DNA of 64,000 nt. Origin: Bacillota bacterium (GTDB lineage: Bacteria > Bacillota > UBA4882 > UBA10575). The notes under the pieces are model-generated. The model had not been told where the DNA came from, made no database searches, and saw only the letters and a program-made list of their open reading frames with translations. The stretch covers positions 1-64,000 of the forward strand of contig DUQR01000033.1 of the NCBI GenBank assembly GCA_012837715.1, read 5' to 3'. Positions within the stretch are counted from its first letter, which is position 1. Every line of letters starts with the position of its first letter. A program made the position numbers and the translations under genes. Positions 35,373 to 41,296 of the stretch are shown piece by piece.

Positions 35373-36254
35373 ATGAAAAACCGTGTTCATCTATGGGTCT
35401 GCCTGATCTTCACAGTAACGTCTTGTTTGATCGCGCCGGCGGCGGCACAGGAACCGCAAATCTTAACCTTTCCGGCCGTAGCGGCGGTCACCGAAACCGG
35501 TCGCACCTTAACCTTTACTCTACCGGGAGCCACCGCATCAGCCGTTAGTTTTCATTGTGCCGGCCTAGTGGAACCGGTAACCGGCAACCGGATTAACGGG
35601 GACCGTCTTACTTTCTCTTACGGCCAGAAAAAGGTTGGCCCCAACCAAGTGCTCACCCTGAATACGAAGCCAACGGGAAAACCAGAACCAGACAGCGCCC
35701 GGGAATTTGGGCTGCAGATTACTTTTCTCCCTTCCGATCCCCCAGGTGAATACGGGGGTATCATCGAGGCGGTTCTTCATGATTCAACAGAACAGGCGGA
35801 ACGGATCCCCCTTTGGGTGAAAGCCCGGGTTTTACCCTGGATTAAGGTGGAAACAGCTTCGGTCCAACCTTTCGCAAGGCCCGATCCGGTTCTTTCCCTT
35901 ACCGAGCATAGTTTAGAGATTAATGAACCGGTCAAAGTTTTCCTTGCTTCCAACGCGCCCTGGCGCCTGTACCTGAGAGCCGGGATGGCCATCCCCGATC
36001 AGGACCGCAGTCTCCTTCTCCATATTAAGATTGGGCACACCGGTCAAGGAGGGGAAGAACAAAAAACGCTCCTTGTTAATGGCCCCTCCCAACTGGTCGC
36101 TACAGGCCCGCCCACGGTAGTTGGTGATGGTTTGGCGCCGGCCAATTATTGGACAGAGCTTTATCTTTCCGCTTTCCTTGCCGATTGGCGCCAATACCCC
36201 ACCGGAAATTATCCGTTAACTTTCATTTTTTCCGGTGAAACCATTAACCCCTAA
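35373..36254 (+). CDS. Secreted beta-rich protein, putative fimbrial subunit or adhesin
   Basis: A 293-residue protein with a signal peptide (cut after PAAAQ) and no named family that I recognise. The remainder is strand-rich: one module at about 27-155 and a second at about 160-293. The C-terminal segment DWRQYPTGNYPLTFIFSG resembles the last strands of chaperone-usher subunits (…Y.aGtY..t..v). It is the first gene of an operon with a second secreted protein, a PapD-like chaperone and an usher-like barrel, so a subunit or tip role is inferred. The start ATG has a GGGGGA ribosome site. Confidence 0.65.
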   Translation: MKNRVHLWVCLIFTVTSCLIAPAAAQEPQILTFPAVAAVTETGRTLTFTLPGATASAVSFHCAGLVEPVTGNRINGDRLTFSYGQKKVGPNQVLTLNTKPTGKPEPDSAREFGLQITFLPSDPPGEYGGIIEAVLHDSTEQAERIPLWVKARVLPWIKVETASVQPFARPDPVLSLTEHSLEINEPVKVFLASNAPWRLYLRAGMAIPDQDRSLLLHIKIGHTGQGGEEQKTLLVNGPSQLVATGPPTVVGDGLAPANYWTELYLSAFLADWRQYPTGNYPLTFIFSGETINP

Positions 36255-36337
36255 GGGATAAACCAAATTGGTTACACTCCGGTAGGTGGCGCGCATTAAC
36301 CGGTTTGTAATAAATAAATGAATGCGAGGTCGATACG

Positions 36338-37159
36338 ATGAGGAAATCAATTGCTCTTTTACTGACCCTGGCTCTCCTGATGCTCTCCACCGCTGCATTC
36401 GCCCAATTCGGCGGCAATCCGCCTCCTCCATGGTGGGATCCCCAATGGAAGGATTATGATAATCACCGGTGGGATGATGGAGAAGTCAGTTGGACAAAGG
36501 TGGATGAAAAATACGTCAATATTCCCTGGATTGACCGGGATAACGCCCTCCTTGATGAGAACAATCCGGCCCGGGCTCAATCCGTGGAGATGGCTCTTCA
36601 AACCCGGGCTTATATCCCCTGCTATCTCGAGATGAAAGTCACCGGGAATGAAGGTCAGACCATATTACAAAGCTTTGGGCCTTTGGCGACTCCCGTAGAG
36701 AATCCCAACGGTTATCTCTTAGCCTTTGATAATGAAATCGGCGGTTTTGTCGATGAGTTCTGGAATTCGCTGGGGCATGGACGTAATGCCGAAGTCAACT
36801 TTACGGAAGGCTGGAGCAATGTGTATATTCAAGGTTGCGACGTCTTCAAGGTTGAAGTTTACGCCAATGACGATTATAAGTACGAAGTTCAAGCCGGCCC
36901 CCTCACCCCCTATGATGCCAATACCGAAGCGTGGGAAGCCGTTGACCAACTTAATCTCCAGATGAGATATAAGTTTGGTGAGTACGGATTATATGGCCAA
37001 ACCCGCACCTTTGATCAGCCGGGCGAAATTAAGGAGATTGCTGTCATGGACGCCTGTGAAGAATTAACCGTTTACCATCAATTCCGCGTCCCCTATTCCC
37101 GCAATATTGCCCACGGCCGCTATGACGGGGAAGTAATCTTCCGCGCCTATACGCTCTAA
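36338..37159 (+). CDS. Secreted protein, putative major fimbrial subunit
   Basis: A 273-residue protein with a clear signal peptide (MRKSIALLLTLALLMLSTAAFA). The mature N terminus is Trp- and Pro-rich (GGNPPPPWWDPQWKDYDNH), then a strand-rich body with cysteines in YIPCYLEM, IQGCDVF and MDACEEL. The C terminus RNIAHGRYDGEVIFRAYTL ends in alternating hydrophobic residues, as chaperone-usher subunits do in the strand that the chaperone completes. No database family is recognised. It lies between another secreted protein and the chaperone, with a stem-loop directly after it. Confidence 0.65.
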   Translation: MRKSIALLLTLALLMLSTAAFAQFGGNPPPPWWDPQWKDYDNHRWDDGEVSWTKVDEKYVNIPWIDRDNALLDENNPARAQSVEMALQTRAYIPCYLEMKVTGNEGQTILQSFGPLATPVENPNGYLLAFDNEIGGFVDEFWNSLGHGRNAEVNFTEGWSNVYIQGCDVFKVEVYANDDYKYEVQAGPLTPYDANTEAWEAVDQLNLQMRYKFGEYGLYGQTRTFDQPGEIKEIAVMDACEELTVYHQFRVPYSRNIAHGRYDGEVIFRAYTL

Positions 37160-37188
37160 ACCACTACCATTTCGATTCTTGTGTAATC

Positions 37189-37215
37189 CGGCTGGTGTTC
37201 GCGCCGCACCAGCCG
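37189..37215 (+). other. Stem-loop after the putative subunit gene
   Basis: CGGCTGGTG (37189-37197) pairs with CACCAGCCG (37207-37215), nine-base loop, no T-run. Its place after an abundant secreted protein and before chaperone and usher genes fits differential mRNA stability. Confidence 0.6.
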
Positions 37216-37246
37216 ATCTTTACTATCTGTGAGGGAGGAACGGACG

Positions 37247-38050
37247 ATGGATAAACGATCCCAACCTAAGTTTTTATGCCGCCTGGTTACAGTGGCCTTG
37301 GCCCTAACGCTTTTGGCGTCAAACGTTCACGGAGTCGCCCGGGTCGAACCCAGCAAATTCCTTTTTACTTTGGAACCGGGCGAACGCATCACCGATGCGA
37401 TTAAAGTGACCAATACCCAAGCGACGGCGGCAGAATATACAGCCGTCATTTATGATTGGACCCTGGATGACGAAGGGCGCCTGGTAACCTCACCCGCCGG
37501 CAAACGGGCAGATACCCTCGCCGGTCTGATTAAATTTAACCCCCGCCGCTTTAAACTGGAACCAGGCCAAAGCCAGTATGTCCGTTTTACCCTAACCGCC
37601 CCCAAAGACGGCGACTGGCTGGAAAGAAGGGGAATCATCTTTTTTGAGGAAAGCCGTCCGCCGGAGGTGAATGCGGTTGGCTCGACCGTCGTCATCCAAG
37701 TCGGGGCTACTGTTTATCTAAGCTTTACGGAGACAGTCAATTCTTTTCGCGCCTATGGCCTGAAAATCCAAACCGGAGCGGAAGGTCCGCCCGCCCTCCT
37801 CCTTGATCTGGCCAATGAAGGGCAAGCCCATATTCGCTATCAGGTTACCTACAGGATCACCGGGGAAAACGGCGGTCTTTTGGAGGAAAATGCCTGCGGG
37901 GAGCAGCTGATCCTACCAGTCAGCCGGCGCCTAGTTAGCTTTCCCTTTACCAACACCCTGCCGACGGGTGATTACCAGATTGAAGTCAAGATTAGTTTTA
38001 GTGGAACAAACCAAATTCTCTCGCGCGTCGTCCCGTTTTCCATACCCTGA
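37247..38050 (+). CDS. PapD-like periplasmic chaperone
   Basis: A 267-residue exported protein (signal ending near ASNVHG) with the two Ig-like domains of fimbrial chaperones. The first begins VEPSKFLFTLEPGERITDAIKVTN and ends with the G strand QSQYVRFTL; the second runs from about residue 150 (AYGLKIQT...) to the end. This N-terminal pattern (structural start, extended E/P-G turn, then a long edge strand) is shared with chaperones of chaperone-usher systems and related archaic types. GAGGGAGGA before ATG 37247 fixes the start; the upstream GTG at 37229 has no site of its own. It would fold subunits before delivery to the usher encoded next. Confidence 0.78.
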   Translation: MDKRSQPKFLCRLVTVALALTLLASNVHGVARVEPSKFLFTLEPGERITDAIKVTNTQATAAEYTAVIYDWTLDDEGRLVTSPAGKRADTLAGLIKFNPRRFKLEPGQSQYVRFTLTAPKDGDWLERRGIIFFEESRPPEVNAVGSTVVIQVGATVYLSFTETVNSFRAYGLKIQTGAEGPPALLLDLANEGQAHIRYQVTYRITGENGGLLEENACGEQLILPVSRRLVSFPFTNTLPTGDYQIEVKISFSGTNQILSRVVPFSIP

Positions 38051-38089
38051 GTTCGTCTTCTTCGCTGACCGGAGATAGGGGGAATCAAA

Positions 38090-41000
38090 TTGTTAAAAAG
38101 AAGCAATTATTCTTATTACCTTAAATTGCTAAGCGCCGTTATGATCTGCTTCTTCCTTTCGTTAAGTACCGGGGCGCAAGCTTTCGGCCAAGAAGCCGTG
38201 GCCTTGGAGACCAGCATTGCCCTATTGGTAATTAAGGCAGGAGATACCATCTACGTCCAGGATCCCTTCTTTGAACTTCTGGATCTGGGCACGCATCTTT
38301 TGGTCCCGGTGAACCGGCTGACGACCAGCCTTAACCTGGATCTGTCTTATTACCGGAACGAAAAAAAGCTGGTGCTTACCAATAAGCTTAACCAAAAGAA
38401 TGCCGAAGTTCTTTGGGAAGAGGAACTTTACCGGATCGACAATCGGCTGTTCTTAAGCAAAGAACCACCGGTTTTCTTCAGAGGTAACGTCTTTGTCAGC
38501 CTTCCCTTTTTGGCCTCCTTCCTTGAGGCCGAATTGGACTGGGATTTTCGTTATCAAGCCCTCACCCTGAACGTAAAAGAGGGTTTACTCAAAACAACCC
38601 CCTCGACCACGAGGCCCGAATTTATGGACGAGAGCGTGAAAAATGAACCGCCGCCCCAAGAAGGGCCGCCCTTTGCCTTAAGCTCAGTCCGGTACAAATT
38701 TGGGCTGGAGCACCGGAAGGAGGAGCCTGCCGCCGAAAGCTTGGACGGACTCTTCAAATTACGGTTGGATGGCTATTCCGGAGAGTGGGCCCTTTCCGCC
38801 GCCGGTGGGGTTAAACACAACTTTTTCAACCAGGTTCTAACGCCCGAACTATCCCTCTTACGGGCAGAATACCACAAAGATAATGAGTTAATCATCATCG
38901 GCAATGCCGAGGCCGAGTTGGAGAAGACCTTCGGCAAAAAGGAGATCTGGGGCGCTTTATATATGACCCCTGTCTTCCAGTTTCGTAGCGAATTATTTGC
39001 CTATACCAACGTGTCCGGTCCAGTGGAAGCTGGCGACCAAGTCCTTCTTTATCTCAATGAGCAGCTCTGGGAGACCCAACAATATAATACCAACGGCACA
39101 TACCTTTTCTATGATGTGCCTTTACAGATTAACCGGGTAAACCGCATCCGGGTCGTGATCCAAAAGGAGAATGGAGAGTCTTTGGCAACTGTCCGCGAGA
39201 TCGCAGCTACCCCCCGGATTTTACCGCAAGACCGAAATGAACTGATGGTCGCTTCCGGTCTTTACCGTAAAACCGCCATTCCCGAATGGGAAGGCGCCAT
39301 GGTCGGCTACCGACAACAGATGGCCCTAACTGAAAACATCACCTTCGGCCAAGAAACAGCCGTCTCCGCTCCTTACGTCAAATTCCCCGAATATAGTTTT
39401 ATCGGCGCCGACACGGGAGTGGCTTTTCGCCTCAACAAAAACCTTGTTTTTACCCTCGACTGGTTGGTCGGGGGGGAAATCACGAAAGATGTCCACACCG
39501 GAATTGAATCCTCCCTTTTGTACTGTTTAGAAAAGGGTTTCTACGAAGGTGTGATCTACTATATACCGGCGCCGGTGACGAAAGGGGTCAAAAGCCGATC
39601 CGGCCAAGGAACTTTGGTCCGTTCCGAGCATGAACTCCAAAATAATCTGCTCCTCAACACCGAGGGGTATTTATCCAAATCCACACCGGAATCCAGTCCC
39701 TGGTCCTTAGATGGCGTTAACCTGACCCTGACCAAAAAATACGGTGCTTATAACCAAAACAGTCTGGCCGGGCGGGTGGGGAAAAAGTGGCTGACCCAAG
39801 AGGTGGCAACCGACCACTACAAAGCGGATCAAACGAGCGGCGCCGTTAAACATATCATTCGGGAACGGTCTGTTGGCGCCAGTACGGAAGGGGAATTGGT
39901 GAAGACCAAGTATTTTTCGAATAACGACGGCCCTTATCATCGGCTTAATCTGAACGTCAACACCGATTTCACTTTGGCCTTGACCAATAACTTCCTCTTT
40001 GGTCTGGCTTTGGATACGATCAATACTTGGCAAGAAGAAACCTACAGAGGCCTATACCTCTTAGGAGAAACCGACGCCAAATGGAGCTTAACTGATGACA
40101 CCCTTTTGTTCGGAAATATTACCCTAGAAAGCAGCAAAGACCCACAAAGGGAGCCTTCCTTCCACCTTAAACAATTCAAAACTGGCCTCGGCCTGCAGCA
40201 TTTTTTCACCCCGGAACTAAATATCTACGCCGAAGCCAACCGTGCACGCGAGTCGTATCGAGTTGGTGGTGATGATTACCGCTATACCACCGTCCGGTTG
40301 GGAGTAAATTGGTATACCACGGACCGGACCGGAATAATCAGGAGCCAAATCGGTTACCGCTCACCGGTGGGGAGCCGGGTCTCCCCCCAATGGTCCTACC
40401 GCTTAACCTGGGAGAAATACCTGCCTTCCGCCTTTTTACTGGAACTCGGCCTGGAGCGCCTCTTTGACGGGATCTGGGACCAAAACCCGGAGCAGATTAT
40501 CCGTATCTCGCTCAGCCGCGCCCTTAGCTTTGCCGACGGCAAGGTCAAACCCTACCGCTATACGGAAGATGATCTGTCCGCGCGGGTTGGCGGGGTAGTA
40601 TACTTGGATATCAACGCCAACGGCCGGTTTGATGAAGGGGATAAAGCCCTCGCCGGAATTAAGATTCTCGCCGACGGACGACTCGCCATCTCCAATGAGA
40701 AGGGGGAATACATGTTCGCGAATTTAACCCCCGGTATTTACCGCGTGGATTTCCATCTTCCCTCGTTACCGGCGAATTACACCCCGGTCACCGGGCCCCA
40801 GTTAATCCGGCTCCGGGCGCAGGAAAACTTCTTTATTGATTTTGCGGTCACGGTTAATGGTTCCATCAGCGGTCTGGTCTTCCTTGATACTAATGCCAAC
40901 GGACAATTCGACGCCGGTGAAAAAACCTTATCCTGGGTTGAAGTGATCCTTGATGAAGGCCAGCAAAAAGTCTTTACCGACACGGACGGCACCTTCTACA

Positions 41001-41158
41001 TCGAAGGGGTCTCCCTGGGCGCCCACACCCTTACTCTAGACCCGGATAGTCTCCCGGCCGGTCTGACCGTTTCCGGTCATGACGTTAAAACCCTGACCCT
41101 AACTGAAGCCGAGTTGGATGTGGCCGCGGTTCTTTTCCCGTTGGTTAAGACCGATTAA
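38090..41158 (+). CDS. Usher-like outer-membrane assembly protein with copper-amine-oxidase-N-like and SdrD-B-like domains
   Basis: A 1022-residue exported protein, probably an outer-membrane beta-barrel. After the signal peptide, residues about 40-165 look like a copper amine oxidase N-terminal (stalk) domain (paired strands, LLVPVNRLTTSLNLDLSYY, VSLPFLASFLEAELDWD). A Pro-rich linker follows. About residues 305-395 carry the usher-type segment VEAGDQVLLYLNEQLWE, YLFYDVPLQINRVNRIRVVI, ending PRILPQDRNELMVASGLYR, as in the usher barrel/plug region. A long strand-rich barrel runs to about 825. Two SdrD-B-like repeats end the protein (YLDINANGRFDEGDKAL; FLDTNANGQFDAGEKTL). The TTG start follows GGGGGAA. 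It lies 39 bases after the chaperone. Confidence 0.75.
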   Translation: MLKRSNYSYYLKLLSAVMICFFLSLSTGAQAFGQEAVALETSIALLVIKAGDTIYVQDPFFELLDLGTHLLVPVNRLTTSLNLDLSYYRNEKKLVLTNKLNQKNAEVLWEEELYRIDNRLFLSKEPPVFFRGNVFVSLPFLASFLEAELDWDFRYQALTLNVKEGLLKTTPSTTRPEFMDESVKNEPPPQEGPPFALSSVRYKFGLEHRKEEPAAESLDGLFKLRLDGYSGEWALSAAGGVKHNFFNQVLTPELSLLRAEYHKDNELIIIGNAEAELEKTFGKKEIWGALYMTPVFQFRSELFAYTNVSGPVEAGDQVLLYLNEQLWETQQYNTNGTYLFYDVPLQINRVNRIRVVIQKENGESLATVREIAATPRILPQDRNELMVASGLYRKTAIPEWEGAMVGYRQQMALTENITFGQETAVSAPYVKFPEYSFIGADTGVAFRLNKNLVFTLDWLVGGEITKDVHTGIESSLLYCLEKGFYEGVIYYIPAPVTKGVKSRSGQGTLVRSEHELQNNLLLNTEGYLSKSTPESSPWSLDGVNLTLTKKYGAYNQNSLAGRVGKKWLTQEVATDHYKADQTSGAVKHIIRERSVGASTEGELVKTKYFSNNDGPYHRLNLNVNTDFTLALTNNFLFGLALDTINTWQEETYRGLYLLGETDAKWSLTDDTLLFGNITLESSKDPQREPSFHLKQFKTGLGLQHFFTPELNIYAEANRARESYRVGGDDYRYTTVRLGVNWYTTDRTGIIRSQIGYRSPVGSRVSPQWSYRLTWEKYLPSAFLLELGLERLFDGIWDQNPEQIIRISLSRALSFADGKVKPYRYTEDDLSARVGGVVYLDINANGRFDEGDKALAGIKILADGRLAISNEKGEYMFANLTPGIYRVDFHLPSLPANYTPVTGPQLIRLRAQENFFIDFAVTVNGSISGLVFLDTNANGQFDAGEKTLSWVEVILDEGQQKVFTDTDGTFYIEGVSLGAHTLTLDPDSLPAGLTVSGHDVKTLTLTEAELDVAAVLFPLVKTD

Positions 41159-41262: not shown

Positions 41263-41296
41263 AAGGCAGTGTTATTTCAGGCACTGCCTTTTATTT
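41263..41296. terminator. Terminator of the chaperone-usher operon
   Basis: AAGGCAGTG (41263-41271) pairs with CACTGCCTT (41282-41290), followed by TTTATTT. It overlaps the stop codon of the opposing small gene and may serve both directions. Confidence 0.8.

Follow-up and report, generated by a model that had tools for sequence, protein, structure and literature searches.

In the window analysed here, meaning the whole 64,000-nucleotide stretch at positions 1 to 64,000 of contig DUQR01000033.1 (Bacillota bacterium, assembly GCA_012837715.1), four open reading frames (ORFs) lie on the + strand between 35373 and 41158, separated by short gaps that hold no other credible gene. We interpret these genes, here called g1 to g4, as an operon for a divergent type of chaperone-usher assembly in a diderm Firmicute, a system that forms a lineage of its own and whose usher has Firmicute-type domains at either end, and we put the probability of this reading at about 0.87. 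A first-pass annotation, made from the letters alone, had already noted four same-strand genes and proposed such a divergent system; all four ORFs are indeed present, and the proposal gains support from the fold of the usher, the profile of the chaperone and the co-conservation of the genes. The operon comprises the following features (aa, amino acids):

35373..36254, + strand: g1, conserved first gene of the operon, secreted protein of 293 aa; proposed tip or minor subunit, probably with two beta domains
36338..37159, + strand: g2, secreted protein of 273 aa; proposed main fibre subunit
36575..36619, + strand: candidate donor strand in g2 (aa 80-94, AQSVEMALQTRAYIP), with an alternating hydrophobic pattern
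37189..37215, + strand: GC-rich hairpin of 10 bp between g2 and the chaperone gene g3
37229-38050, + strand: ORF of g3, 273 aa, open from GTG at 37229
37247..38050, + strand: likely coding sequence of g3, 267 aa from ATG at 37247; putative periplasmic two-domain chaperone
37682..37717, + strand: stretch of g3 aligned by hhalign to the EcpB stretch that holds the donor residues Ala111-Ile117
38090..41158, + strand: g4, putative outer-membrane usher, 1022 aa, TTG start
38219..38572, + strand: usher N-terminal periplasmic domain (aa 44-161), stalk-like, matching Cu_amine_oxidN1 and not PapC_N
38672..40534, + strand: predicted usher barrel (aa 195-815), six strand segments before and 24 after the plug, 30 in all (DSSP of the AlphaFold2 model)
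38996..39205, + strand: plug of the usher (aa 303-372), a six-stranded domain inserted between strands 6 and 7 of the barrel
40583..40843, + strand: usher C-terminal domain 1 (aa 832-918), SdrD_B type
40862..41155, + strand: usher C-terminal domain 2 (aa 925-1022), SdrD_B / CarboxypepD_reg type
41263..41290, + strand: terminator-like hairpin 3' of the usher gene, closing the operon

Signal peptides are obvious by eye at the N-terminus of each of the four proteins, in agreement with the first-pass annotation. The start codon of g3 is probably the ATG at 37247, which follows GAGGGAGGA, and ribosome-binding-like stretches are found ahead of both g3 and g4. Promoter-like sites do not exceed chance level. 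Stem-loops had been described both inside and before the operon; the internal one was recovered between g2 and g3, whereas our scan did not recover one before the operon. The g2-g3 hairpin occurs at the same place in 16 out of 20 loci, in each case more stable than all 15 shuffles, and its stems differ in sequence among the loci.

The identification of the usher relies on structure prediction and profile comparison of g4. An AlphaFold2 model of the protein, built with 23 homologues (mean predicted local distance difference test score, pLDDT, 84.3), shows a large barrel whose plug follows strand 6, and a Foldseek search of this model against the PDB placed FimD/PapC chains at all of ranks 1-18 (E 7.8e-27 to 3.5e-11), the next barrel in the list being LptD (E ~1e-8). 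Comparing the 23 g4 homologues with seven ushers of E. coli K-12 by hhalign yielded 97.3% (E 2.6e-11, score 106.5) over 275 columns, which begin where the N-domain ends and take in the plug and the next strand, against a maximum score of 22.1 in 60 column shuffles and 26.1 for the reversed set. The usher-type plug claimed in the first-pass annotation is therefore borne out by hhalign, model and Foldseek alike, and the barrel it had assigned to the 1022-residue protein is predicted as a transmembrane one, with FimD and PapC as its best solved folds. The barrels of FimD and PapC have 24 strands. That of g4 is predicted to be wider, with 30 strands, a figure that counts DSSP segments of a predicted model and not the strands of a closed barrel.

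Confident hmmscan matches in g4 are limited to the ends of the protein, namely Cu_amine_oxidN1 at the N-terminus, found in 20 of the 23 homologues, and SdrD_B at the C-terminus (Pfam, E 6.4e-17 for two copies), where the type of C-terminal domain 1 is kept in 23 out of 23. When the PDB was searched by sequence, single proteins and profiles alike found SdrD_B domains only. The Pfam usher model (PF00577), PapC_N and PapC_C matched neither g4 nor its homologues, and TcfC and CooC_C domains were not matched in the g4 family. This is no objection to g4 being an usher, because EcpC, an accepted usher, is likewise missed by the same Pfam model. On the combined strength of model and profile alignment, the identification of the middle of g4 as an usher is well supported.

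For g3, the profile comparison with seven E. coli chaperones, signal peptides removed, gave 47.8% (score 35.0; maximum 19.5 in 60 shuffles), indicating a homology that is moderate, so that the chaperone-type N-terminal strands seen in the first-pass annotation are confirmed to a moderate degree only. An earlier value of 91% for this comparison was discarded, as it was partly a signal-peptide artefact and fell to 48% without these peptides. Among single E. coli chaperones EcpB is closest by far (63%, E 7e-5, 26% identity over 113 columns), while each classical chaperone remains below 3%. One proline is described as the sole invariant residue of the chaperone superfamily (PMC4654587), and it corresponds to P105 of g3, which is kept in 23 out of 23 homologues. 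Furthermore, R203 is the equivalent of the Arg148/174 anchor (Arg148 in EcpB) and is kept in 22 of 23, R134 (R or K in 23 of 23) falls on or one residue from the non-classical Arg89 position, and a basic residue occupies the classical Arg8 position in 22 of 23. Two of the 23 homologues touch PapD_N below its cut-off (best E 0.0027), and no EcpB_C domain was matched in the g3 family. Since the profile matches the E. coli chaperones above all shuffles, with EcpB as best match, the proposed relation to the PapD type is upheld; g3 thus appears to be a two-domain PapD-like periplasmic chaperone, which by its anchors and invariant residues would stand outside all known chaperone classes.

The two secreted proteins match no Pfam family, spore-coat-U included, as expected from the first-pass annotation, which had recognised no subunit family in them. 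Orthologues of g1 are 32-70% identical within the family, have profile-level relatives in Orenia and Halanaerobium and are always encoded by the first gene of the operon. Homologues of g2 share the C-terminal ending HQFRVPY..(H/Q)GxYxGxVxFxAYT(L/I) in the alignment. The AlphaFold2 model of g2 reaches a pLDDT of 69 overall and about 80-93 for the C-terminal beta domain (aa 160-273), with low-confidence modelling of the N-terminal part (aa 22-93). An hhalign comparison related the C-terminal half of g2 to the small subunits encoded in sister clusters (66%, score 37.6; maximum 19.8 in 40 shuffles), and in a shorter homologue (locus L062) the mature protein begins at the stretch equivalent to g2 aa 80-94, the candidate donor strand. 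Gene order, secretion and the conserved C-terminal strand together suggest that g1 and g2 are subunits. Two sets of candidate relatives were rejected: FedF, CfaB and the PapG pilin as folds for g2 were too weak to be used (Foldseek E 0.02-0.05), and matches of the small sister subunits to FimA (81%) and to WxL (92%) shrank to 0.7% and 8%, respectively, without signal peptides.

The host genome (2.4 Mb, 53 contigs, 98.7% complete) contains six Omp85 matches, two of which cover the whole model, and its nearest named relatives with the operon are Bacillota metagenome-assembled genomes (MAGs), one of them labelled Hydrogenispora sp. Because Omp85 is present and these relatives belong to the Bacillota, the host is a diderm Firmicute, the kind of host that the first-pass annotation had suggested. 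The usher adjoins the chaperone in 22 out of 22 named loci, which were found with the chaperone profile and are in some cases cut by a contig end, and g2 and g1 lie upstream in the same order in most of them, so that the co-conservation of the genes is confirmed. Loci with this order include those of Orenia metallireducens, Halanaerobium kushneri and H. saccharolyticum. Of 398 genomes surveyed in the phylum, 61 are matched by the chaperone profile, a number that includes tandem or anchored forms without a link to an usher; 56 of these 61 have Omp85, compared with 46 of the other 337. Counted by Omp85, the chaperone is present in 56 of 102 Omp85 genomes versus 5 of the 296 others, with a Fisher P of 7.6e-34 that is inflated by the kinship of the genomes. 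Additionally, one Halobacteroidaceae MAG carries two tandem usher genes (locus L054, 9581-12610 and 12870-15644).

Taken as a whole, the locus shows several marks of the chaperone-usher superfamily, namely a predicted plugged barrel, a putative two-domain chaperone, a conserved operon and a host with an outer membrane. Such systems have been described from Proteobacteria, Cyanobacteria and Deinococcus-Thermus, the last two being the groups beyond Proteobacteria in which archaic systems are known (PMC4654587). With the classical systems (FimC-FimD, PapD-PapC) the present operon shares the plugged barrel usher with its plug after strand 6, an N-terminal periplasmic domain and two C-terminal beta domains on the usher and the adjacency of chaperone and usher genes, and these systems also supply the best fold matches of the g4 model. 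It differs from them in lacking matches to PF00577, PapC_N and PapC_C, with PapD_N below cut-off in 2 of 23, in its 30 predicted strand segments versus 24, and in the missing Lys anchor of g3. The alternative (alpha) type, represented by the E. coli common pilus (ECP, EcpB-EcpC), provides the E. coli chaperone nearest to g3, whose R203 aligns to EcpB Arg148, and EcpC also has a CarboxypepD_reg-like C-terminus; yet the operon has no TcfC, CooC_C or EcpB_C domain, the Tyr anchor is replaced by L, I or V, and g4 is nearer to the classical usher set than to EcpC. The archaic (sigma) type, such as Csu, shares the conserved basic residue near Arg89 (R134, R or K in 23 of 23), whereas g1 and g2 have no spore-coat-U match. 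Judged by these sequence characters, the system appears to belong to none of the classical, archaic and alternative types.

By analogy with these systems, the product is best read as a surface fibre or layer built through donor-strand exchange. The signal peptides suggest that Sec would export g1 and g2 to the periplasm, where g3 would cap them, its G1 strand completing an otherwise incomplete immunoglobulin (Ig)-type domain. Following the FimD/PapC mechanism, the plugged outer-membrane barrel of g4 would then receive the chaperone-subunit pairs, the N-terminal strand of the next subunit would replace the chaperone strand, and the polymer would pass to the outside. In this scheme the repeating subunit is probably g2, with g1 at the tip or as a minor component, and the hairpin between g2 and g3, a proposed attenuator or RNA stabiliser, probably holds subunit output above that of chaperone and usher.

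Several points weigh against a chaperone-usher system, one being that no fibre has so far been seen. In Pfam and NCBIfam, none of the four proteins matches a chaperone or usher model, the searches with PapD, FimD/PapC and spore-coat-U profiles suggested in the first-pass annotation gave nothing above cut-off in them, and PF00577 exceeds its cut-off in 0 of the 398 genomes of the phylum. The g3 family lacks both the classical Lys anchor, A, T, S or V being aligned with Lys112, and the non-classical Tyr anchor (Tyr196/169), with L, I or V in its place. The Foldseek TM-scores of the best g4 matches are modest, about 0.4-0.56 of the target, which would be expected with a wider barrel but also with partial mis-modelling. 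Finally, no solved fold in the PDB significantly matches the g2 model (pLDDT 69), and g2 and the small sister subunits are unlike FimA-type subunits once signal peptides are removed.

The most serious competing explanation keeps the machinery and changes its product, in that single g1 or g2 proteins or a short complex would be displayed, as an amorphous coat or a tip fibrillum, instead of a polymer. That only two secreted proteins are encoded, that g2 has a long N-terminal part (aa 22-93) of low model confidence and no recognised pilin fold, and that the wider predicted barrel could pass bulkier cargo all agree with such a product; since a repeated subunit is consistent with both the conserved hairpin downstream of g2 and the subunit-like strand at its C-terminus, and sister clusters encode several small subunits, we consider it unlikely, although well worth keeping in view. 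A reading of g4 as an SdrD_B surface adhesin or porin of MSCRAMM-like type, unrelated to ushers, could draw on the SdrD_B match (E 6.4e-17) and on the SdrC and SdrD models listed by NCBIfam. These NCBIfam matches fall far short of their cut-offs (26.4 bits versus 1700 and 24 versus 2500, C-terminus only), and all SdrD_B, SdrC and SdrD matches are confined to the last 190 residues, whereas barrel and plug match FimD/PapC first, a chaperone gene always adjoins and the C-terminus of EcpC, a true usher, is likewise CarboxypepD_reg-like, so that this very improbable reading is largely refuted by the hhalign and Foldseek usher matches. Recent acquisition of a classical operon from Proteobacteria, to which the same gene types and the adjacency of chaperone and usher would point, is still harder to credit, given a sequence far outside PF00577, Firmicute-type end domains on the usher, conservation in two deep Bacillota groups and a g3 that is nearer to WxLIP than it is to any chaperone of E. 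coli.

This last relation concerns WxLIP (DUF916-DUF3324) of monoderm Firmicutes, the partner of WxL proteins. WxLIP_PGBD is the closest relevant Pfam family over the g3 homologues, matching 21 of 23 (best E 9.6e-5), and fn3_5, a generic Fn3-like domain, matches equally many; for the g3 of the window itself, PF06030 stays below cut-off. With signal peptides removed, the g3 profile aligned with six genuine WxLIP proteins at 97.7% (E 1.6e-12, score 89.7) over 211 columns spanning both domains, the maximum in 60 shuffles being 27.0. A direct comparison of WxLIP with the E. coli chaperones gave nothing (0.6%), and the alignments suggest that the diderm Firmicute chaperone bridges the two families. 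Both g3 and WxLIP have two Ig-like domains in the same order, and WxL-type genes precede WxLIP as the subunit genes precede g3; WxLIP, however, has a C-terminal membrane anchor and no usher, whereas g3 ends without a transmembrane segment. A WxL domain is absent from g1 and g2, and no relation of g2 to WxL was detectable once signal peptides were removed.

A strand of WxLIP is predicted to complete the WxL beta-sandwich in parallel, in a paper that never mentions chaperones, ushers or pili (PMC10599100), and this reads like donor-strand complementation. In the literature, the ancestor of the Firmicutes is held to have been diderm, the outer membrane having later been lost several times (Taib et al. 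2020, as cited in PMC11456536). We tentatively propose, at somewhat less than even odds, that WxL/WxLIP of monoderm Firmicutes (Enterococcus, Listeria, lactobacilli) are usherless relatives of the diderm system: outer membrane and usher would have been lost, and the chaperone would have gained a membrane anchor and stayed as the permanent strand lender of its former subunit, while the present operon keeps its usher. In genomes without Omp85, four loci (L135 5758-7818, L147 5816-7838, L148 426-2209 and L149 2234-3757) encode a chaperone-like protein directly after a small secreted protein that ends in a subunit-like strand, with no usher nearby; the chaperone-like proteins of L148 and L149 have a C-terminal membrane anchor. 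The small secreted proteins of these genomes are homologous to the subunits of the sister clusters (97.7%, E 2e-12).

Our literature search found no report of chaperone-usher systems from diderm Firmicutes, and a survey of secretion systems in these bacteria omitted the pathway (PMC4793230). Automatic annotation based on SdrD_B would label ushers of the g4 type (38090-41158 and homologues) as MSCRAMM-like adhesins, which may be the reason why the system was overlooked. Being conserved from Hydrogenispora-type bacteria to Halanaerobiales, it extends the pathway to a deep branch of the Bacillota and suggests that the chaperone-usher pathway may date back as far as the outer membrane of the Firmicutes. 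A barrel of the predicted greater width would be a natural variant of the classic translocation pore, and the link to WxLIP yields a specific hypothesis on the way in which WxL is held by WxLIP, in easily handled bacteria.

Outside the window, the same genome contains a second divergent usher-type cluster (contig G000:C27, locus L022, 5003-11918), which encodes small secreted proteins (163, 164, 157 and 172 aa long), a chaperone-like protein of 269 aa and, on the opposite strand, an usher-like protein of 892 aa with SdrD_B domains. Tandem chaperone-like proteins of about 500-640 aa, made of two units, were found in L128 (4470-9193 and 9451-12908), L129-L132, L146, L056 (3672-7738, Halanaerobium kushneri) and L156. 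Small secreted proteins are encoded upstream at these loci, together with a secretin (PF00263; E 5e-45 in L128, 5e-36 in L056) and a porin-like or other secreted protein, making a chaperone-secretin pathway without an usher possible.

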